A stretch of DNA of 64,000 nucleotides from Rosa chinensis (taxonomy: Eukaryota > Streptophyta > Magnoliopsida > Rosales > Rosaceae), in the NCBI RefSeq assembly GCF_002994745.2, contig NC_037090.1:5949501-6013500 (forward strand), written 5' to 3'. The position numbers and the translations under genes are program-made. Of this stretch, positions 20,911 through 32,431 are shown in pieces (position 1 is the first letter of the stretch; every line of letters starts with the position of its first letter). Under the pieces are notes generated by a model. The model was given only the letters and a program-made list of their open reading frames with translations. It did no database searches and was not told the origin of the DNA.

Positions 20911-21094
20911 TTCTTTGATGGGTCTTTTTTCATAGAGAATGAGAGTTTTTATTGGGACCTTTAAATTTGCTTATCTGACCTCTCATACTCTATACACCTC
21001 ATTTTCGCTTTTAAATACAAATCTTTGCTCATTAGACTTTCTTTTGAATTTCAAAAATAAACCTTATGAATAATTCATATACAAAAAAAATAAA

Positions 21095-22260
21095 TTAGTG
21101 TTATACCTCTAATTCACTCATTACACCTCCAGAATACCAAAAAAAAAAAAAAAACACCACCTTCTCTCACCCAAAAACTCTCATCTTCCTACGAAACCTT
21201 AAACAAAGTCTAGACTGAGAACTTAATAAGAGTTCTGAAACAATTTCTTAGCATTTTAATCACAGCAAAGTTTATAAAAGTATTCAAATAATAGCTTGTT
21301 TGGAGGCTCTAAAGCAATGAATTGTGTCTCCATTAATGATGATTTTTCAAATAGGCTCAATAGCTCTTATGCGAATAATTGGTTCTAACATTCGGAAAGG
21401 GAACGTTATCATGGATGAGTGTAAGATCACAGATTTATACCACTATTCTCGTTTCTTTAATAAACAAAAAAGAAAAAAAAGCTTTGTTATTGTCAAGGGT
21501 GATGTTGCAGGGCATGTAGCAGAATTTGACGAGGCATTTGAGCTTGATCCTGGCCAAAAGGCATGAGAATCAATATAGTTATGGGATATTTGTTTGTGGT
21601 GAGTTTGGGATATTGATTGTTGGTTAATGGTTGTTATCCAATCTTTGGTGAAGGGGCAGTCACTTTATAATGTTGATAGGTACTGTTAGCTCTTTGATAG
21701 GTCTTTTTTCATAGAGAATGAGTTTCTATTGGGACTTTTAAATTTGCTCATCTGACCTTTCATACTCTCTACACCTCCTTTTCGCTTTTAAATACAAATC
21801 TTTGCTCATTAGACCTCCTTTTGAATTCCAAAAATAAACCTTAGTTCTATTATTCATATACAGAAAAAATAAATTACTTATTATACCTCTAATTCACTCA
21901 TTACACCTCCATAATACAAAAAAAAAAAAAAAAACAAAACAAAAACCACCTTCTCTCACCCAAAAACTCTCATCTTCCAACGAATCCTTAAACAAAGTCT
22001 AGACTGAGAACTTAATAAGAGTTCTGGAACAATTTCTTAGCACTTTAATCACAACAAAGTTTATAAAAGTATTCCAATAATAGCTTGTTTGGAGGCTCTG
22101 AAGCAGTGAATTGTGTCTCCATTAATGATGATTTTTCAAATAGTCTCAATAGCTCTTATGCGAATCATTGGTTCTGACATTCTGATCGGAAAGGAAACGT
22201 TATTATGGATGAGTGTAAGATCACAGGTTTATCCACTATTCTCACTTCTTTAACAAAAAC
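21095..22260 (+). repeat. Tandem duplication of about 780 bp with a second TPR exon 2-3 copy
   Basis: The block holding TPR exon 2-3 sequence (20640-20910) and the following repeat segment (21095-21450) occurs again at 21480-21690 and 21875-22250, offset by about 780-790 bp. The second exon 2 copy reads GDVAGHVAEFDEAFELDPGQ then KA and a stop, so it is also dead. Confidence 0.65.
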
Positions 22261-22701
22261 AAAAAAGAATAGAACAATACCCGACCTCTGTGTAAGTATA
22301 GCTTAAAACTATTTACTTATCTATCTACATATAGTTGATCTCTCTGTCTCTCCAAGTCATATCACAAAGTAACCAGCATTAATACAGCATGTACTAAATG
22401 AATGGGGCTCTGGCGAAACCTAAACCCTAGCCCTCAGTTATGGCGGCCGGTATCAGCCTCCCCTCTACGTTATCTCATGATGACACTCAGAAGCCGACCT
22501 TGTGCGGCGACCACACAACCTTGTCCTAGGTTACTCATCATCTCTTGCAGGAAGGAAATAGGTGATGTGACAGTTATGGATCAGTGCTCTAGTACGATCA
22601 GACGCAATGGTGATTGGGTGGAAGAATGGCCGTGTCAGATCAGGCCGAGGTGAGGCCGGCTGAAGTATGGGTGGTTCGCAACCGGAAACGACCAACGCAT
22701 A

Positions 22702-24538
22702 TGACGCGCTCAAAGCAAGCGCGCAATTTAACCCTGAAATATCGTTAGTAGTATAAGCAAATAGGGATCGTTCTATTCCGGGGATTGAGGGTACACCTGT
22801 CATTGTGAAACAAATAAAGAAAAGTATTATTTACAAAAATAAAATAAAGAATATAAATATATACAATTGTATAAACAAATAAAGAATTAAAATAATAAAG
22901 TATTATTTACAAAAATAAAATAAAGAATAAATATATACAAGTAAACACAAATAAGGGGGGGATTAGGATTCTTAAAATTAAAATTAAAATAAATAAAATA
23001 AAGAAAACGTAAAAACATATATACAAGGGGGGAACGCAAGGAACAAAGATCAAAATCAATTCCATGTAATCAAATTCGATTCAAACCCTATAATTGTTCT
23101 TCCAAGTCATGAGAGAGGAGTTGATCATGTGAAACATTCGAAAGCAAATGATCTCCCATATTTTACTTTTCAATGCTAATTAACCTAAGCGAAAGCACCT
23201 AGATTAATCCTATCAAACATGCAATCAAGCCCTAGAAAGCTAGTCAATCATGACATGTTCAACGCATTAGACATAGAGAAAGGCTATCAACTCAAGTGTA
23301 CAACTTAGTTATGGAAAAGTCCACCTAATTGCAATCCTCTTCAATTAAATTCGATTCTTGTCCAGAACCTTTACTACTTTTGATTCAAGTTACACAAAAC
23401 GAAAAGTCGATTTCATGTTCTTAAACCTAGCACCAATTACATGCAAATCCTATAAGTGTCGACCCAAATAAGATAAACATATAAAAGTTTTCTGTAAAGC
23501 AAATTTAATCGAACAAACTCACATAAGAGACTTAGAATCACAATTATAGAATTCGAAAACTTTATTTAAACATAGAAATTGGGCTTAAACTTTGCCCTAA
23601 ACATTATTGTTAACTAGAATTCATAGTTTTACAAAATCAAACAAAGAAAACAAGAGAAAGGATATAATACACCTTGAAAGATGAATGATAAAGCCTTGAG
23701 ACGAAGAACTTGAAGATCCTTGAAAGCAAGCAATCTTCTAGGGACGACACAAGGGTGGATGGCGGTTGAGAAATTGATGTATTGCATGGCTTCTCTTTCT
23801 CTTGGCTTGAAAATGAAGAACAAGAAAACTAGAGAATGGAAAAGAAATATGGAGAGGAAATGGAGAGACAAGGAGATGGAATGGATGAAGGAATGTGGTC
23901 TTTTGAGAGTGAGAGGAGAAGTGTATTTATAGCCCAAAAAATGATGAATGGAGGGTGGAGATGAACATAAATAAAGGGCTAGATATGTTAGACAAATTTG
24001 TAAAAAATATCTTCCCACTTGTTTATCACTTGTTCAACTTGAATTGATTTTCCTCCTCAAGATTTTCCACTTGGTTGCAACTTTGATTTTCCTCCTCAAG
24101 ATTTTCCACTTGGTTGCAACTTTGATTTTCCTCCTCAAGATTTTCCACTTAGTTGCAACTTTGATTTTCCTCCTCAAGATTTTCCACTTAGTTGCAACTT
24201 TGATTTTCCTCCTCAAGATTTTCCACTTGGTTGCAACTTTGATTTTCCTCCTCAAGATTTTCCACTTGGTTGCAACTTTGATTTTCCACCTCAAGATTTT
24301 CCACTTGCTTGGAGGTCCTAAAAATAGAAACTAATAAGAAAAATAGAAACTTTCCTAAAATGAAAAATGGCAACTTACTAAAAATGATAAATAGAAACTA
24401 CAAAAATATAAACTTTCTACAAATAGGAACTTTCCCAATCAAAGAATGGAAACTTTCCTAAACAGGATTTTAATAAGGAAATAACGTAAGAAATGTAGGG
24501 AAATGCAGTTAAAACGTCGCATTAAAATGCTCCTATCA
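22702..24538 (-). repeat. 3' LTR of the retrotransposon
   Basis: 1837 bp, paired with 29716-31551. It contains a 39-bp tandem repeat. Next to the host junction (22702-22724) it differs from the other LTR over a short block, TGACGCGCTCAAAGC versus TGACGTCGCTTTTGG. Confidence 0.9.
24046..24310. repeat. 39-bp minisatellite in the 3' LTR
   Basis: Nearly seven copies of a 39-bp unit containing GATTTTCCTCCTCAAG and CCACTTGGTTGCAACTTT. Two inner copies carry CTTAGTTG. As 39 is a multiple of three, long ORFs open on both strands without being genes. The same array is at 31059-31323. Confidence 0.9.
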
Positions 24539-26439
24539 AATTCCCCCACACTTAGCTTTTGCTAGTCCCTTAGCAAAATCACACTAAGACACACACTAAC
24601 ACTCAACGAAAATTAAAGACTCTACAAAAACAATGACTCTATTGCCCTTCAACTTTTTGTCTCAGAAATCTCTTACTTTCACAACATCAAGATTAGCACT
24701 CAACCAAGAATCAATATGTAGATATTCAAGAGTTAATTAAAACATATAATCAACACATACACAAGTAGGACTTGGTTGTGACAATGGTGATGGTTTCTGT
24801 TAAGCATGCTTCGAACAAGTATGATTCATATCCTCACAAGGTATATCCACTCTTTCTTCTCTCAGAATTCAAGACAATGCTTAAAAGCTTATAATCACTC
24901 AATTATATGTGAGAGAAAATATTTTGAGGCAATCAAATAGCTCACATATATAAGAAACGAAAAGCACTTTGTGAATATAATTTTTTTGAAAAGATCTCAT
25001 GAAGGATATCAATTACTTGCACGGATGGACCCAAGCCATAGGTTCAACTCTTGTAACTCATCTCCACATCAAGGGCTGTCCCATCTTAAGGATCAAGAAG
25101 GTCTTCTCAAAGGTTGTAATGGGGCTAAGGCTCAAGGTTTAAAGAAATGAAAGGTAAGGATTTATCAAAATGTCCTAAAAACCTAGCAGAGCAAATGTAG
25201 ATGTAGAGACCTCAAGAAATCCACCAAGGCATTGCAAAAACGTCACTTTCCCTAGAGGTAACATAAAAGGGCCTAATGTCTTCATGTTGGGCCAAATCTT
25301 CATTGTAAACTTCCCTAGAACTATAGTGGAATGGACAAAGGCCAAATTTTTCTGTAGTGGGCCTTCAGTTCAAAGTAAACTCCAAAATCACTAAGTATGG
25401 GGGACTAAAATCCATAAACATTTTTCTTTCTTTTCTTTTCTAGCCGTACACAATTTTTTTCTTTTCTTTTCATTTTTCACGGCTTTCACAATTTTTTTTT
25501 TTTTCATGGACAAGTCTACCCCCACACTTGAACTTTCACCTCTTCTCAATCTTCTTTCTCAATGCCAAATCCTCAAGTAAAGTCCCAAAATATAGCTCCA
25601 CTAAGTTTTTAGAACAAAGGGTAGGAGTGTAGCTATACTAAGGTTCAGGGTTAAGGATTTAAGGGTGATGAAAGAAAAGGCTTAATGTAAGCTCAAAGGG
25701 GTTTATCTAAGAGAGTCCCATGACGGGCACAAATAGGGACACATGCTTATTTGGCAATGGTGATAATTCCTAGGTTGCCTCTATCCCTTCCAGAATCAGG
25801 GCCATGTATTGACAAACGTTTCAACAAGCACAAGAGCGAATTCTAGCATTCTCTAGTCCATCAAACTTAATCTATGGCAAGCAATCAATCAAATGAAAGA
25901 GTAATGAGATCATCAAAACATCGCCAAGAAATTAAGAATATATTTTTCAATTATCACTCCAAGAAAAAGGGACATGGCTCAAATATCTCACATGGGCTTT
26001 TATGAATCAAAACTCATCCTAACATGCTCATATTCTGTACCAAGGTTACGAAATCCATATCCACTACACATGCATGCATTTTTCATATATCTCAATTAAC
26101 CAAAGAATACCATTTTAAAAATCATCTCAATTTTGTGATCCTCTTTTAATCATGATTTTAGAGATATAGAATCATCTTAGACAGTTGAAAGGGCATTCTA
26201 AGACTCAAAAACAAAAACAAAAGTAACTAAATTTTTTTTTTTAAATAATTTAATTTCAACACTTAGGTACGGGAACAGGGAGTCTCGATGTGCAATGGGA
26301 CTGAAACAGCTACCATTTTTCAAGACTATGTTTAATCCAATATACCTTAGTGTATCACAACATCAATTAAAAACACAAAAAAACACAATCCAACTTCAAC
26401 TATTTTTTTTTTTTTTATACTAACTACTAAAAACACAAT
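24539..26439 (-). other. Non-coding interior of the retrotransposon
   Basis: No domain of gag, protease, reverse transcriptase, RNase H or integrase is seen in any frame. The stretch has several T-rich or A-rich runs (for example 25491-25504 and 26402-26416). Confidence 0.6.
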
Positions 26440-26712
26440 AAAGCAATAACCCTTCCCCCATACTTAATTCATGCATTGTCCTCAATGTATAAACAAATAT
26501 AAATCATGCAAAGCATAAATCAAGCATAGAAGAGAAAATTAACACAACGAAACCTAAAACAACCTAAAATTCATGAAAATAAAATAGAAGGAAGAGTTCA
26601 AGAAAGCAAATCTGTGTTTGATGGCTCCTCCACAGCTACAGTTGAAATGGGTTGCCTCCCATGCAGCGCTTAATGTTTAAAGTCTTTCAGCCTAGACTTG
26701 TACCTCCATTTA
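26440..26712 (-). repeat. Left direct repeat flanking the homeobox cargo
   Basis: It shares order and motifs with 28705-28945: CTTCCCCCA-ACTTAA, ATGCATTGTCCTCAATGT, GAAAGCAAATCTG, GGGTTGCCTCCCA-G-AGCGCTT, and a CAGCC...GTACCT end. The two copies bracket 26713-28704. Confidence 0.65.
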
Positions 26713-27240
26713 CTCCTTTGGAGGAGCGGTATGCTGGCGAGTGGCAGCCCTCTTGCTGGTTTCAGCCTTCGGAGGCGGGTCCTCATGTTGTGATGCAGTA
26801 GCGTCCTTGCGAGGAAACCCAGGAGGATAACTCTGCAAGTTATTGACTTCCTGAGCAAGCTTGTTTATTGCAGTGTGACAGCGGATCAAAGAGCAGTTCA
26901 TCTCAGAGATGTAATCGATCATGCAATTGACTCTCCAATCTGTCACCATAATACCATCGCGGAGAGAGGAACGCAAATCATCAATCGAATCCGACAAGCT
27001 TTCCAGGGTGGCCATAGGGCGAGGAGCACGAGCAGCTGGTGAGGAAGAAGACTCTCCGGGATGCAGTCTGGGAGAGCGACGAGGCAGAGGAGGGGGACTG
27101 CGGGTACGCTCACGGATAGGACGATGGTCCCATGGATGAGTAAGCCCAGCTCTAGTGGCCGCTTGACGACCTTCTTCTTCCAAAGAGAGAACATGGCGTT
27201 GATTGACGCCCCTGCGAGGGGTAACCTTGGTTCGAGCCAT
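26713..27240 (-). CDS. Retroelement-borne ORF of unknown function
   Basis: An open frame of about 175 residues starting MARTKVTPRRGVNQRH. It has an Arg/Pro/Ser-rich middle (RTRSPPPLPRRSPRLHPGE) followed by a more helical part (LSDSIDDLRSSLRDGI; INKLAQEVNNLQSYPPGF). The frame is open upstream to 27357, but the MARTK start follows the basic-tail style of retroelement proteins. It resembles ORFs seen in plant non-autonomous gypsy elements, though I cannot name a domain. It is divergent from the WUS-type gene; about 590 bp separate the two starts. Confidence 0.5.
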
Positions 27241-27420
27241 GAGGAAGTAGAAGGAATTTGAAACTGCACGCTTTAGACAAACCTTAGTAAAATCTGGAGG
27301 AGACAAAAAAGGATGTATATGTAAAGCACAAAATAGGGTAGAAATCTCAACAGGCACACGGTTTTAACAAAGCTTCTCCGGGAATGAGAAGAGTTATGAC
27401 AGTTCACGGCCCAAGAAACT

Positions 27421-27720
27421 CCCCCACGTGTAAATATTCCTTTCTTTTCCTGGATTTATGGCATGCTTTCGGCTATAGCTCCTCGAGATTCGTTTGATTC
27501 CCCCACGCGTCCTTCTTTTCCTTGATTCACGGCAATTAAACCTGCTTTCGGCTGTAGCTTGTCTGTCACAGCTCCTCGAGATTCGTTTGGTTCCCCCACG
27601 TGTCTTCCACTCGGCAACAGCTTTTCTGTGTTTGCGGGTGACTTTAATCCAACGCGTAGATTTAATCTCAGAGGTCGTCCATCCAACGGTGGAGATCTGC
27701 TCACTCGTTCTATAATTAGG
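27421..27720 (+). promoter_or_regulatory. Putative promoter of the WUS-type gene with repeated G-box motifs
   Basis: CCCCCACGTGT occurs at 27421-27431 and 27593-27603, with a variant CCCCCACGCGT at 27500-27510. They lie in tandemly related blocks that also share GCTTTCGGCT-TAGCT and CTCGAGATTCGTTTG-TTC. CACGTG is the plant G-box. A TATAATTA box is at 27711-27718, about 115 bp before the ATG. The region could serve both divergent ORFs. Confidence 0.45.
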
Positions 27721-27832
27721 TGCATTCTGAGGGAGCGACTATTCACTCCAAAAGAAAATTCTTCCGAGTTCCATCCTTTCTCTCTCAACCCTTCAGCCTT
27801 TCTTTCGAAACTCCAATCCTTTCTTCATCAAC

Positions 27833-28507
27833 ATGGAACCACGAACTCTGCAACTAATGGAGTTACAAACCCAGCAACAAATGGAATTACAAGCCCAGCA
27901 ACCAACCGAGGAGGGAGGAAGCATCCAAGCAGCCGGGAGTAGTAACCGGTGGGCTCCCACACCGCCTCAACTAAGAATCCTCAAGGGCCTTTACTATGAT
28001 AAGGGTTTTAAGTACCCAACTCCAGAGCAGATTCAAGAGATCTGCCTTCATCTGAAACAGTATGGGCAGATCGAGGACAAGAACGTCTTCTTTTGGTTCC
28101 AGAACCTCAAGGCTCGTGAGAGGCAGAAGTTGAAGGAATTTCGGAACGTTCCGGTTGGTGGATCTCTCGATCTCAATTTTGGATCCACTAGTTCTACTGA
28201 TGATGGTAGATCCATTGATCTAAACTTTGGGTCACGTGTCGGCTATGGTGTTGACCCATATTCCTCCTCACCCTTCAACACTAATACCAGTACTACCTCC
28301 TTTGGCACAACAGGAGGACAATCTTTCATGGAACAACGAGGAGGAGATCACCAGGAGATTGAAACCCTTCCACTATTCCCCATGCATGGTGAGGACATCT
28401 TTGGCAACATGAAGACTACTTCCGAGGGAGGTGGCGGTTATGGCGGTGGCTCTCACATTTCCCTTGAGCTCAGTCTCAACTCCTACAGAGATGCAGACAT
28501 GGCTTAG
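27833..28507 (+). CDS. WUS: WUSCHEL-type (WOX) homeodomain protein inside an LTR retrotransposon
   Basis: An uninterrupted 224-codon ORF. The N-terminus is Gln-rich. A WOX homeodomain spans about residues 38-102 (NRWAPTPPQLRILKGLYYDK ... NVFFWFQNLKARERQK). A perfect WUS-box TLPLFPMHGEDI is at 178-189, and an EAR-like LELSLN is near the C-terminus (211-216), as in WUSCHEL. Two extra DLNFGS repeats (113-118 and 129-134) look like further repression motifs. The helix-3 signature has QNLKAR where WUS has QNHKAR. WUSCHEL maintains stem cells in the shoot meristem and represses or activates transcription through these motifs (family knowledge). The protein is shorter than typical WUS (about 290) and the CDS has no introns, unlike cellular WUS genes. 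It lies antisense within the retrotransposon at 22702-31551. Confidence 0.88.
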   Translation: MEPRTLQLMELQTQQQMELQAQQPTEEGGSIQAAGSSNRWAPTPPQLRILKGLYYDKGFKYPTPEQIQEICLHLKQYGQIEDKNVFFWFQNLKARERQKLKEFRNVPVGGSLDLNFGSTSSTDDGRSIDLNFGSRVGYGVDPYSSSPFNTNTSTTSFGTTGGQSFMEQRGGDHQEIETLPLFPMHGEDIFGNMKTTSEGGGGYGGGSHISLELSLNSYRDADMA

Positions 28508-28704
28508 TATTATTATTATTATTATTATATATATATATATTTTTTAATTTTTAAATTTTTTTTTTTTTTTTTTTTGTAAATAAGACTGAATGAATGCAAT
28601 TTTTTTTTTTAATATTTTTTTAATATTTTTTTTTTATAGAAAGGACTCAAAAATAAAAGACAAATATATATATAGGACTCAAAATGAAAGACAAAAATAT
28701 AAAT
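28508..28704. repeat. Low-complexity A/T stretch after the WUS-type gene
   Basis: ATT and AT microsatellites (28507-28542) and long T-runs (28556-28575). It could hold the 3' end of the WUS-type transcript. No poly-A tail of a retrocopy is seen on the coding strand. Confidence 0.5.
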
Positions 28705-28945
28705 CTCTTCCCCCACACTTAAATATTGCATTATCCTCAATGTAATTAATTAAAAGCATGCAATGAAATAAGTAAGCATAGATAGAAGACATTTATGAAA
28801 ACAAATCCTAAAATAAAAACAATAGAGAAAAAATGAAAAATAAAAAGAAATAGGGAAAGAGAAAGCAAATCTGATTATATTCTGAATTGGGTTGCCTCCC
28901 AAGTAGCGCTTGTATTTTACGTCTTGCAGCCAGACAGTACCTACA
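28705..28945 (-). repeat. Right direct repeat flanking the homeobox cargo
   Basis: Diverged partner of 26440-26712. The shared GGGTTGCCTCCCAAGTAGCG type of sequence is common in plant gypsy-like element interiors. Confidence 0.65.
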
Positions 28946-29693
28946 TTAAATAAAGTTAGTAACTAAAATTAACAAAGAAATACAAAATAAAAACAAGTAT
29001 AACTATTAATTACAAACTACAAGTATTATTAACAAGTATATTGTACATAGGACACAAATTAAGTACACAAGTGAGTATAAAACGTGAAAAGTATTTTTAC
29101 AAGTTTATAGTGTGAAACAACAAAATAATTTACACGTATAGAGTATTCACAAGTATTTCTTTTATTATAAACATTATTGATATCGAATCAAATTCCAAGC
29201 GGTAAATCAAGTGGACGTGCGGCCCAAGTATAGTCGCCTAGACACAAACTCCCTTTCAAATCGTTTGGGCAACCTTACTGAAATGGCCAGGTGGGGGAGG
29301 ACGAACACGAGAGGAAAAATCCATTTTGGCATGAGCTACTCCCACATTGTGGTTTAGGCCCATTTGCAAGCACTTCTGGATTCAAAAACCCGTCATGAAC
29401 GTTGTCCCCTTCCTAGACACCATTTCACATAGGCTTTCTTACTAAGATGAGAAAGTTCATAAGTGTGAAGACAGTTCAACAAGTGTTAATAAAGGCCGCC
29501 CTCAACCTTAAGGGACCTGAGTTAGGTACCAATAAGGGGTTTAGGCCAATATTAACAAAAGAGACTTCACCTATTCCTCTCAATTTACAACCTACAATTA
29601 AAATTCGTGTTCAATAATATAAATAATATTTAAACTAAGTTTTAAACAATTTATATACAATAAATGAAACAATTTAGCAAGTGATTTTTCAAT
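28946..29693 (-). other. Leader region of the retrotransposon
   Basis: AT-rich interior between the primer site and the right direct repeat. No coding domain is seen. Confidence 0.5.
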
Positions 29694-29710
29694 CCCCGGC
29701 AACGGCGCCA
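29694..29710 (-). promoter_or_regulatory. Primer-binding site (tRNA-Asp type)
   Basis: The minus strand reads TGGCGCCGTTGCCGGGG, complementary to the 3' end of plant tRNA-Asp including CCA. It lies 5 bp from the 5' LTR and fixes the orientation of the element as minus. Confidence 0.85.
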
Positions 29711-29715
29711 AAAAT

Positions 29716-31551
29716 TGACGTCGCTTTTGGGAAGCGCGCAATTTAACCCTGAAATATCGTTAGTAGTATAAGCAAATAGGGATCGTTCTATTCCGGGGAT
29801 TGAGGGTACACCTGTCATTGTGAAACAAATAAAGAAAAGTATTATTTACAAAAATAAAATAAAGAATATAAATATATACAATTGTATAAACAAATAAAGA
29901 ATTAAAATAATAAAGTATTATTTACAAAAATAAAATAAAGAATAAATATATACAAGTAAACACAAATAAGGGGGGATTAGGATTCTTAAAATTAAAATTA
30001 AAATAAATAAAATAAAGAAAACGTAAAAACATATATACAAGGGGGAACGCAAGGAACAAAGATCAAAATCAATTCCATGTAATCAAATTCGATTCAAACC
30101 CTATAATTGTTCTTCCAAGTCATGAGAGAGGAGTTGATCATGTGAAACATTCGAAAGCAAATGATCTCCCATATTTTACTTTTCAATGCTAATTAACCTA
30201 AGCGAAAGCACCTAGATTAATCCTATCAAACATGCAATCAAGCCCTAGAAAGCTAGTCAATCATGACATGTTCAACGCATTAGACATAGAGAAAGGCTAT
30301 CAACTCAAGTGTACAACTTAGTTATGGAAAAGTCCACCTAATTGCAATCCTCTTCAATTAAATTCGATTCTTGTCCAGAACCTTTACTACTTTTGATTCA
30401 AGTTACACAAAACGAAAAGTCGATTTCATGTTCTTAAACCTAGCACCAATTACATGCAAATCCTATAAGTGTCGACCCAAATAAGATAAACATATAAAAG
30501 TTTTCTGTAAAGCAAATTTAATCGAACAAACTCACATAAGAGACTTAGAATCACAATTATAGAATTCGAAAACTTTATTTAAACATAGAAATTGGGCTTA
30601 AACTTTGCCCTAAACATTATTGTTAACTAGAATTCATAGTTTTACAAAATCAAACAAAGAAAACAAGAGAAAGGATATAATACACCTTGAAAGATGAATG
30701 ATAAAGCCTTGAGACGAAGAACTTGAAGATCCTTGAAAGCAAGCAATCTTCTAGGGACGACACAAGGGTGGATGGCGGTTGAGAAATTGATGTATTGCAT
30801 GGCTTCTCTTTCTCTTGGCTTGAAAATGAAGAACAAGAAAACTAGAGAATGGAAAAGAAATATGGAGAGGAAATGGAGAGACAAGGAGATGGAATGGATG
30901 AAGGAATGTGGTCTTTTGAGAGTGAGAGGAGAAGTGTATTTATAGCCCAAAAAATGATGAATGGAGGGTGGAGATGAACATAAATAAAGGGCTAGATATG
31001 TTAGACAAATTTGTAAAAAATATCTTCCCACTTGTTTATCACTTGTTCAACTTGAATTGATTTTCCTCCTCAAGATTTTCCACTTGGTTGCAACTTTGAT
31101 TTTCCTCCTCAAGATTTTCCACTTGGTTGCAACTTTGATTTTCCTCCTCAAGATTTTCCACTTAGTTGCAACTTTGATTTTCCTCCTCAAGATTTTCCAC
31201 TTAGTTGCAACTTTGATTTTCCTCCTCAAGATTTTCCACTTGGTTGCAACTTTGATTTTCCTCCTCAAGATTTTCCACTTGGTTGCAACTTTGATTTTCC
31301 ACCTCAAGATTTTCCACTTGCTTGGAGGTCCTAAAAATAGAAACTAATAAGAAAAATAGAAACTTTCCTAAAATGAAAAATGGCAACTTACTAAAAATGA
31401 TAAATAGAAACTACAAAAATATAAACTTTCTACAAATAGGAACTTTCCCAATCAAAGAATGGAAACTTTCCTAAACAGGATTTTAATAAGGAAATAACGT
31501 AAGAAATGTAGGGAAATGCAGTTAAAACGTCGCATTAAAATGCTCCTATCA
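29716..31551 (-). repeat. 5' LTR of the retrotransposon
   Basis: 1836 bp, the partner of 22702-24538. The minisatellite at 31059-31323 is preserved copy for copy. Confidence 0.9.
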
Positions 31552-32431
31552 GCATACAGTCAGGAAGCCACTAGATGAGAGGTTCTGGGTGGCGAACGTG
31601 TGACCTCTGGACCCGAATCCAACCGGCCAAACTCATTTTTGATGGCGGCGCCAGTCTTTGCACTCCAACTGTTGGAAGTGGCGAAGATTGTCGTCGTACA
31701 CTATGAAGCGAATCAGGTTTTGGAGTCTGCAGAGCACGCCGGTGGGGTGTCTGAAACGATGGCGGTGGCTGCATCTGGAGTGGTAGCGACGGCGTAGGAA
31801 GTGCTTGGCAGTGGAGCGACAAGTGGGGTGGCCAGATCGTTTTGGGGGCCCAAATGGAGTGGGTGGCCCAACTCAGTTTGGGTGCTCAAATCATTTTGGA
31901 AGCCCGAACGATTGTGGTGGCCCAAATCAGTTTTGAGGCTAAAATCAAATGGGCCTGGAGTGTCCAAACCGGCTCTGAGTTCCTTTCGGCATTAGGCTCT
32001 TTGGTGGACCCTGCGAATAGACTCCTTTTCTTCTGAGTTTCATATTTGAGATCCCAGAGGATCATTACCCTACAGCTGGAGGCTCGAGAAAAGGGCAAAG
32101 GAAAGCTATAGGTTTTCTTGGTCTTCTTGCCTACTACTAGAAAGTTGGTCTTCTATTACTTTCATCTTAGTTTTCTCTAGTTGTACACCAATTGAGGTAT
32201 CTAGGCGACTATGTTTACTTTTCAAAGAGAGGTTAGTAGTGAGGATTTGTTTCCTTGTAGTTTGGCTCAAATATGTGAGCGTATGTGTTAACAGTGAGGG
32301 TCACATGTCCTTTGCTCGGTAGCTTGTGTCATTTATGATTTTGGTATGAAACAGCATCTGATGTACGTGCCTTCTGGCCATAGATAAATTAATGAAGTTA
32401 TTTATTTTCTCAAAAAAATAGAACAATACCC

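Follow-up and report, generated by a model that had tools for sequence, protein, structure and literature searches.

WUSCHEL-carrying LTR retrotransposons in the genome of Rosa chinensis

Introduction

Well over a hundred readable copies of the gene WUSCHEL (WUS), which maintains plant stem cells, have been spread through the genome of Rosa chinensis by long terminal repeat (LTR) retrotransposons. Here we describe one such element in a stretch of 64,000 nucleotides, hereafter the window, which covers C3:5949501–6013500 of the 515-Mb assembly. The element is 8,850 bp long (22702–31551), reads on the minus strand, and carries in antisense orientation an intact WUS-type frame together with a second conserved open reading frame, ORF2. 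The account that we favour, and which as a whole we consider quite probable, is that a spliced WUS messenger RNA (mRNA) was captured once, that its carriers multiplied, and that the frames have been kept for the use of the element.

WUS copies in the rose genome

The genome was searched with the WUS frame as DNA, with the WUS protein and with the ORF2 protein, and the best 40 of 652, 150 of 688 and 150 of 696 candidates were scored, respectively, the totals being lower bounds weighted toward well-kept copies. The 40 DNA copies are all 97–100% identical, and all their lengths are divisible by three. From the WUS protein search 162 matches were obtained; the 150 rows listed lie at 88–100%, the last ten covering part of the frame, and 139 are without a stop while 11 have one, which bears out that frames have been kept open. 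The 150 ORF2 rows are full length, three of them with a stop, and for at least 71 of the 150 listed WUS rows the ORF2 list has a head-to-head partner no more than about 2.2 kb away. From 117 ORF2 rows, a set without those close to the 40 best WUS copies and those fetched before, 12 were picked at random; the first six were fetched, and all six carry an intact WUS frame. A protein database search gave 279 relatives at E ≤ 0.001 among 7,998 scored, and 64 of the 120 listed are rose clusters. With two more from a further search, the 66 rose clusters stand for 375 member sequences, four of these clusters being without a species name and counted as rose by likeness. The signature WFxN is kept in 56 of the 66 clusters, WFQN in 46, the WUS-box pattern in 59 and the EAR pattern in 57.

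The element and its WUS frame

The WUS frame in the window has 224 codons (27833–28507, plus strand). Its homeodomain (residues 38–101; 27944–28135) matches the Pfam family Homeodomain at E 6.1e-11, and its best solved structural relative is the WUSCHEL homeodomain 6ry3 (E 7.8e-22). The WUS-box TLPLFPMH (residues 178–185; 28364–28387), which stands in the longer string TLPLFPMHGED, is followed by the EAR-type motif SLELSL (residues 210–215; 28460–28477). In a chosen set of 33 proteins T178, L179, L181 and P183 of the WUS-box are invariant, and so are L211–L215 of the EAR motif. By its sequence the frame is thus a member of the WUS clade, as judged from the homeodomain residues, the WUS-box, the EAR motif and its descent from cellular WUS. 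There is no intron in it; the frame spans neither WUS splice junction, however, and its intronlessness therefore proves nothing, the proof coming from related copies. The linker (28151–28340) has SLDLNFGS/SIDLNFGS repeats that are multiplied in the element copies, while canonical WUS has a single SISHNFGS; the LDLN of these repeats resembles EAR-type repression motifs.

Around the frame lies the full outline of an LTR retrotransposon. The target-site duplication GCATA flanks it at 22697–22701 and 31552–31556, and the 3′ LTR (TG...CA; 22702–24538) and the 5′ LTR (29716–31551), both on the minus strand, align over 1,820 sites without a substitution and with two gaps of 1 nt, a count that excludes the final ~17 nt of the U5 end. 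On the same strand the polypurine tract GTGTGGGGGAATT abuts the 3′ LTR (24539–24551), the primer-binding site TGGCGCCGTTGCCGGGGA lies 5 nt from the 5′ LTR (29693–29710), and CTATAAATA is found in the 3′ LTR at 23924–23932, with its counterpart in the 5′ LTR at 30937–30945. No match to pieces of rose reverse transcriptase (RT), RNase H, integrase, PMD or a gag-like frame was obtained inside the element (tblastn, E 0.01). With its LTR pair, target duplication, primer site and polypurine tract and no pol found, it is a non-autonomous LTR retrotransposon. The first-pass annotation of the window had named the intact WUS-type frame with its homeodomain, exact WUS-box and EAR end, the structural parts of the element, and the antisense, intronless arrangement with a TATA-like box, and all of these were recovered.

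The primer-binding site is putatively tRNA-Asp-like. The Athila lineage is recognised by its RT phylogeny and a tRNA-Asp primer site, and class A (the element type of the window) has the primer motif and no RT. A scan of the window with ARAGORN gave no tRNA, and the tRNA-Asp label is thus a tentative one. A direct repeat of 67% identity brackets the block of ORF2 and WUS on the minus strand (downstream copy 26452–26710, upstream copy 28707–28947). In the last ~17 nt of the U5 end the two LTRs (22702–22720 versus 29716–29735) differ by five substitutions and one gap; such a mismatch within one otherwise near-identical pair is also found in the related locus L026, and the U5 end varies between elements as well. 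Immediately left of the element, at 21002–22192, there is another direct repeat with a step of ~780 bp and pieces 88–95% alike.

Carriers of WUS

Twenty ten-kb loci, found by WUS, were fetched for comparison, and at least three kinds of carrier exist among them. The architecture of the window recurs in six (class A: L018, L019, L020, L025, L026, L027), which excludes a chance origin and answers the proposal of the first-pass annotation to look for the same frame within the same LTRs elsewhere in the genome. All six have the order LTR, 3′ internal region, ORF2, promoter-like region, WUS, 5′ internal region, LTR, and their primer motif is identical to that of the window. Their target duplications, read by eye, are CCCAC, TTCAC, ACTAT, TGGTC, GGTCA and CCGCC; together with GCATA of the window, seven of seven whole elements have perfect 5-bp duplications, all different. 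The LTR pairs of the seven, the window first, differ by 0, 2, 2, 0, 7, 6 and 7 substitutions. In the six loci ORF2 is 97.4–98.5% identical to that of the window, and the LTRs are 82–91% alike over 65–100% of their length. The suggestion that these elements had multiplied is thus upheld, both by the 688 WUS candidates and by the separate target duplications.

The twelve loci of class B (L010–L017, L021–L024) are without ORF2 and, except for partial matches of 82–83% in L022, without the window-type LTR. In three of them (L010, L017, L024) RT, RNase H and integrase are followed by WUS and PMD, both antisense to pol. WUS is antisense to and downstream of pol in all three of these ten-kb loci with pol beside WUS and also in L052, an older copy, the 3′ LTR of the pol-bearing loci lying beyond the stretches fetched. 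The other nine have a gag-like frame beside WUS on the opposite strand, so named by position (Pfam gave no family for L011 and a below-cut-off match for L015), and six of the nine have PMD or part of it, in the opposite direction in L015. Class C (L009, L028) differs again, and L009 has another LTR pair and the primer-like motif TGGTATCAGAGC. A stretch of ~370 bp near the primer site (window 29202–29577) is ~90% alike between class A and nine of the twelve class B loci, whereas the homeodomain DNA of class A and those class B loci is 66–72% alike, which points to recent exchange between carriers.

Selection on the frames

The sample consisted of the homeodomain-score list (150 of 693 candidates scored), the locus L050 from the WUS DNA search, and the window. 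For class A it holds 23 ORF2 rows and 22 WUS rows, the latter count without L035 (broken frame) and L049 (the window again), and L034 stands in both the A and the C list of the comparison of replacement with synonymous polymorphism (pN/pS). In class A pN/pS is 0.54 for WUS, 0.25 for its homeodomain, 0.71 for its C-terminus and 0.52 for ORF2. At greater depth the ratio dN/dS (omega) of the homeodomain is 0.20 between canonical cellular WUS and class A and 0.38 between canonical WUS and class B, the comparison with the parent that the first-pass annotation had called for; it is 0.22 between A and C and 0.27 between A and B, and the C-terminus gives 0.35–0.66. R38, N83, Q89, N90 and R94 are kept in all aligned rows (22 of class A, nine of class B, four of class C), and in the WUS structure it is R38, Q89, N90 and R94 that contact DNA bases (PMC7203112). 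The notable homeodomain changes in class A are Y86F and H91L.

Among ORF2 variants shared by copies, replacement and synonymous changes (N:S) number 11:12 against an expected ratio of 2.62 (p 0.011), while private variants are neutral at 35:14 (p 0.49). This pattern is as expected if source elements need the protein and dead copies do not. Shared WUS variants in class B number 9:9 (p 0.02) and private ones 32:16 (p 0.12). Selection on WUS agrees in direction with that on ORF2, the class A signal among shared variants being weak and partly exposed to sampling. From this depletion of protein-changing differences, source elements seem to need both proteins, the test on WUS itself being the weaker one.

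A competing explanation is that capture of the WUS frame was accidental and that the frame is intact because a few recent master elements multiplied too fast for it to decay. The small differences of 0–7 substitutions within the seven class A LTR pairs fit this idea, as do the 96–100% likeness of the best-scored copies, the noncoding parts of class A that are nearly as alike as the frames, and the silence of most rose-only WOX genes in one published data set (PMC11405225). It does not predict the depletion of replacement changes among shared variants and at deep divergence, nor that the DNA-contact residues are the same across classes despite a synonymous divergence (dS) of 0.24–0.85 in the homeodomain, and we regard it as unlikely. 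It might also be the antisense transcription that matters and not the protein, the antisense RNA tuning element RNA or silencing, an action that has been proposed for antisense transcription in related elements (PMC7264820). The constraint lies at the level of codons, however, and of 23 class A loci, themselves identified through a homeodomain or WUS match, 22 have an open WUS frame, so that this is a distinctly improbable explanation.

Origin of the captured gene

Canonical rose WUS lies at C2:11711808–11713110, where it was found with a Fragaria WUS query along with intronless copies; the idea that the canonical gene is absent from rose is thereby refuted. It has two GT–AG introns of 86 and 335 bp. 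The older copy L051 aligns without gaps to 877 of the 897 canonical coding bases at 95.2% and agrees at 40 of 40 bases across both splice junctions. At junction 2 the same 40 of 40 bases are found in all four older copies (L051–L054), and at join 1 of L052, L053 and L054 the match jumps from base 1200 to base 1323 of the canonical stretch, with the intron and ~36 coding bases gone. In all four the match stops at one common base, before the WUS stop codon, and the flanks are shared class B element DNA; on the opposite strand L052 continues into integrase and L053 into RT, while in L051 and L054 neither was met within the 3.7–3.9 kb examined. The exon joins, the common breakpoint and the class B flanks are together best read as one capture of spliced WUS mRNA. 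The first-pass annotation had proposed capture through an RNA intermediate; the exon joins bear out the RNA route, but the capture took place earlier and in another element, one that had pol. The window element is young by its near-identical LTRs, as had been claimed, and is to be understood as a non-autonomous descendant that also carries ORF2.

In the tree, 23 of 24 element copies (all but P0127) form one starred branch with support 99/98, which joins canonical rose WUS at 85/66 and P0127 at 94/78, the Rosoideae fork having 100/100. Once cellular WUS is included, as had been advised, the element copies therefore group with canonical rose WUS inside Rosoideae WUS. Copies from R. rugosa lie inside the element branch, so the capture is older than the divergence of these roses, provided that crossing has not spread it between them. 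A candidate third intron in the leader of canonical WUS was rejected: in the canonical gene a 16-base direct repeat stands on either side of the 338-bp gap, which has the look of a later insertion. This leader stretch (L055 sense strand 267–604) is missing from L051 and L052, so that its insertion probably postdates the capture.

That unrelated element families captured WUS several times independently is somewhat less credible again than an effect of antisense RNA. Flanking DNA does differ among carriers, and L009 has its own LTR pair and primer-like motif. Against this, the four older copies have a common 3′ breakpoint and flanks, all but one of the element copies form a single branch, and class A DNA upstream of WUS (window 27572–27753) matches at 70% the element DNA that immediately precedes the captured WUS of L051. 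The published suggestion for rose, that a host WOX gene multiplied by whole-genome, tandem or segmental duplication, would suit the crowding of listed copies on chromosome 2 and a few ~7-kb tandem steps, but is scarcely credible given that the target duplications differ in all seven elements, that introns are lost exactly in older copies, that all six class A ten-kb loci have LTR pairs, and that the 7-kb step is the combined length of an LTR and an internal region, the spacing expected from LTR recombination.

Chromosomal distribution

The best 150 of the 696 ORF2 candidates lie only in C1 56.5–67.8, C2 33.8–88.4, C3 0.5–16.5, C7 2.7–18.7 and C5 89.0 Mb and on contig C43; L034 on C4 has a more distant ORF2 (95%) and WUS (80%). 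When 57 class A copies were mapped (40 assigned by WUS identity alone, L034 omitted), they occupied 13 ten-Mb bins where 34.5 would be expected, a clustering reached in 0 of 20,000 simulations; 12 class B copies, by contrast, fall into 12 bins. Old Blush is a hybrid, and the class A blocks are possibly ancestry blocks of the hybrid cultivar, from one parent in which class A multiplied; this would explain both the clustering and the published excess on chromosome 2. Some ORF2 or WUS copies stand at ~7.0-kb steps (C7:15789514/15796522/15803532; C3:1455964/1462992) and are, from the length of the step, probably tandem multimers from LTR recombination.

Proposed history and role of the frames

ORF2 (26710–27240, minus strand) has 176 codons, is sense to the element and belongs to no Pfam family; its structure model is helical and of low confidence (pLDDT 60, pTM 0.27), and it might be a gag remnant or a gag substitute. 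The region between the head-to-head ORF2 and WUS frames (27241–27832, plus strand) contains two G-boxes CACGTG (27425–27430 and 27597–27602), a count matched in none of 300 shuffles, and CTATAA at 27710–27715, 123 bp upstream of the WUS frame. Among the rows with CAACATGGAAC and sufficient upstream sequence, all 23 have one G-box or more and 21 have CTATAA, placed at −119 or −123; one of the 23 repeats the window. From these motifs the antisense WUS frame may have a putative promoter of its own, which, by its likeness to the upstream DNA of L051, is element DNA and not the WUS promoter. WUS binds a G-box (PMC7203112) and G-boxes precede the frame, so self-regulation of the element WUS is possible.

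The history that we favour runs as follows. A spliced WUS mRNA was copied, in the history of the rose, into a pol-bearing LTR retrotransposon, antisense and downstream of pol, as the exact exon joins, the common breakpoint and the common flanks show; from the order RT, RNase H, integrase the original carrier was Ty3/Gypsy. The capturing lineage then multiplied and gave rise to several carriers, of which some have pol and others lack it, and the window element is a young carrier with its own LTRs and ORF2 that presumably borrows the missing enzymes from other elements. Elements with readable WUS and ORF2 frames left more descendants, a view supported by the depletion of replacement changes. The WUS-type protein would act as a nuclear DNA-binding accessory protein for the element, produced from the element-derived antisense promoter; by analogy with the antisense accessory genes of Grande and Retand, this service to the element is the most likely role.

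Several points weigh against this history. The evidence is of sequence, and 359 of 364 rose-only WOX genes were almost unexpressed in a rooting RNA-seq data set (PMC11405225). Class A elements resemble one another almost as closely in noncoding DNA as in the frames (91–98% in the 592-bp region between ORF2 and WUS, 93–97% in INT5b beside the primer site), so that exchange between elements contributes. Shared class A variants of WUS are weakly depleted in replacements (28:16, p 0.078), and the private ones are low as well (36:25, p 0.007), maybe from the selection of copies by homeodomain score. Stops occur in three of the four older copies. The dS to canonical WUS is 0.86 in the homeodomain and 0.23 in the C-terminus, from which the copies are mosaics, and Q89 is not universal, since 10 of the 66 database clusters have WFxN without WFQN. 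The WUS motifs TGAWTGAW and TTAATSS, an excess of which would suggest self-driven LTRs, show no enrichment in seven class A LTRs.

LONELY GUY makes active cytokinin, which acts upstream of WUS in the shoot meristem. In the way that transforming retroviruses carry growth genes, a selfish rose element might keep WUS because its protein, produced from the antisense promoter of the element, acts in or enlarges the lineage of stem cells leading to the germ line, or opens chromatin in it for new insertions, an idea that we put forward tentatively. If it holds, then together with the LONELY GUY-type frames of Citrus elements, regulators of shoot stem cells would be a recurrent prize for plant retrotransposons, and some shoot or flower traits of roses could stem from mobile WUS.

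Comparison with known systems

A published survey counted 381 WOX genes in R. chinensis (RcWOX1–381, clades I–V), 364 of them in rose-only clades, against 170 in R. multiflora and 105 in R. rugosa (PMC11405225). It reported no collinear WOX pairs within rose, suggested genome duplication or hybrid breeding, and called for more evidence. The motifs of its clade V, with TLPLFPMHGEDI and SHISLELSLNSYRDADMA, are those of the window element, and the expansion is confined to Rosa; the copies are treated there as host genes, however, and the string "transpos" is absent from the main text (PMC11405225). WUS-carrying elements probably account for most of the 381, which offers a retrotransposon explanation for a published oddity whose cause was left open, and element genes may be mixed up with cellular WOX genes wherever rose genes are counted, placed in trees or followed in expression. 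In searches of the open-licence literature we found no paper tying the rose WUS copies to a retrotransposon.

The nearest parallel is given by the aORF-3R genes of Ty3/Gypsy elements (Grande gene23, RIRE2, Retand, PvRetro13), which are likewise antisense and downstream of pol. They sit in most copies of their family, and gene23 is driven by a promoter of its own and encodes a nuclear product (PMC7264820). The aORF-3R proteins have no clear similarity to others and their transduced origin has been doubted (PMC7264820), whereas in rose the parent gene, the exons and the capture joint are known. Retand typically has TRP28 (PMC11963269), while the 17 locus proteins scanned in rose, part of the frames, gave PMD and no TRP28. 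An antisense accessory gene of a plant element with a parent known down to the exon joins and well-studied DNA binding makes the role of such genes testable.

Captured host domains are known in other Gypsy elements, namely AlkB in orchids, a YgdH/LONELY GUY-type domain in Citrus and B3 in Aegilops (PMC9289625). The orchid elements, with a frame for an AlkB m6A demethylase, are similar in that a host-derived domain became fixed in the Gypsy lineage of one genus, but they captured an enzyme and the rose elements a developmental regulator; the Citrus elements share the link to the stem-cell pathway, with a different gene and plant. The screen of 121 genomes in that study detects loci by the RT domain, which class A is without, and its main text, the part covered here, has no mention of Rosa, homeo or WUS (PMC9289625). 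The kind of event is thus known (PMC9289625), while the captured gene, the documented capture and the scale look new.

A further parallel lies outside plants. Acutely transforming retroviruses have captured host growth genes, and the rose elements recall them as defective elements with a growth regulator taken from spliced mRNA and a presumed dependence on helper proteins. In contrast to these viruses, the rose elements carry the gene in antisense with a promoter-like region of its own and are inherited through the germ line.

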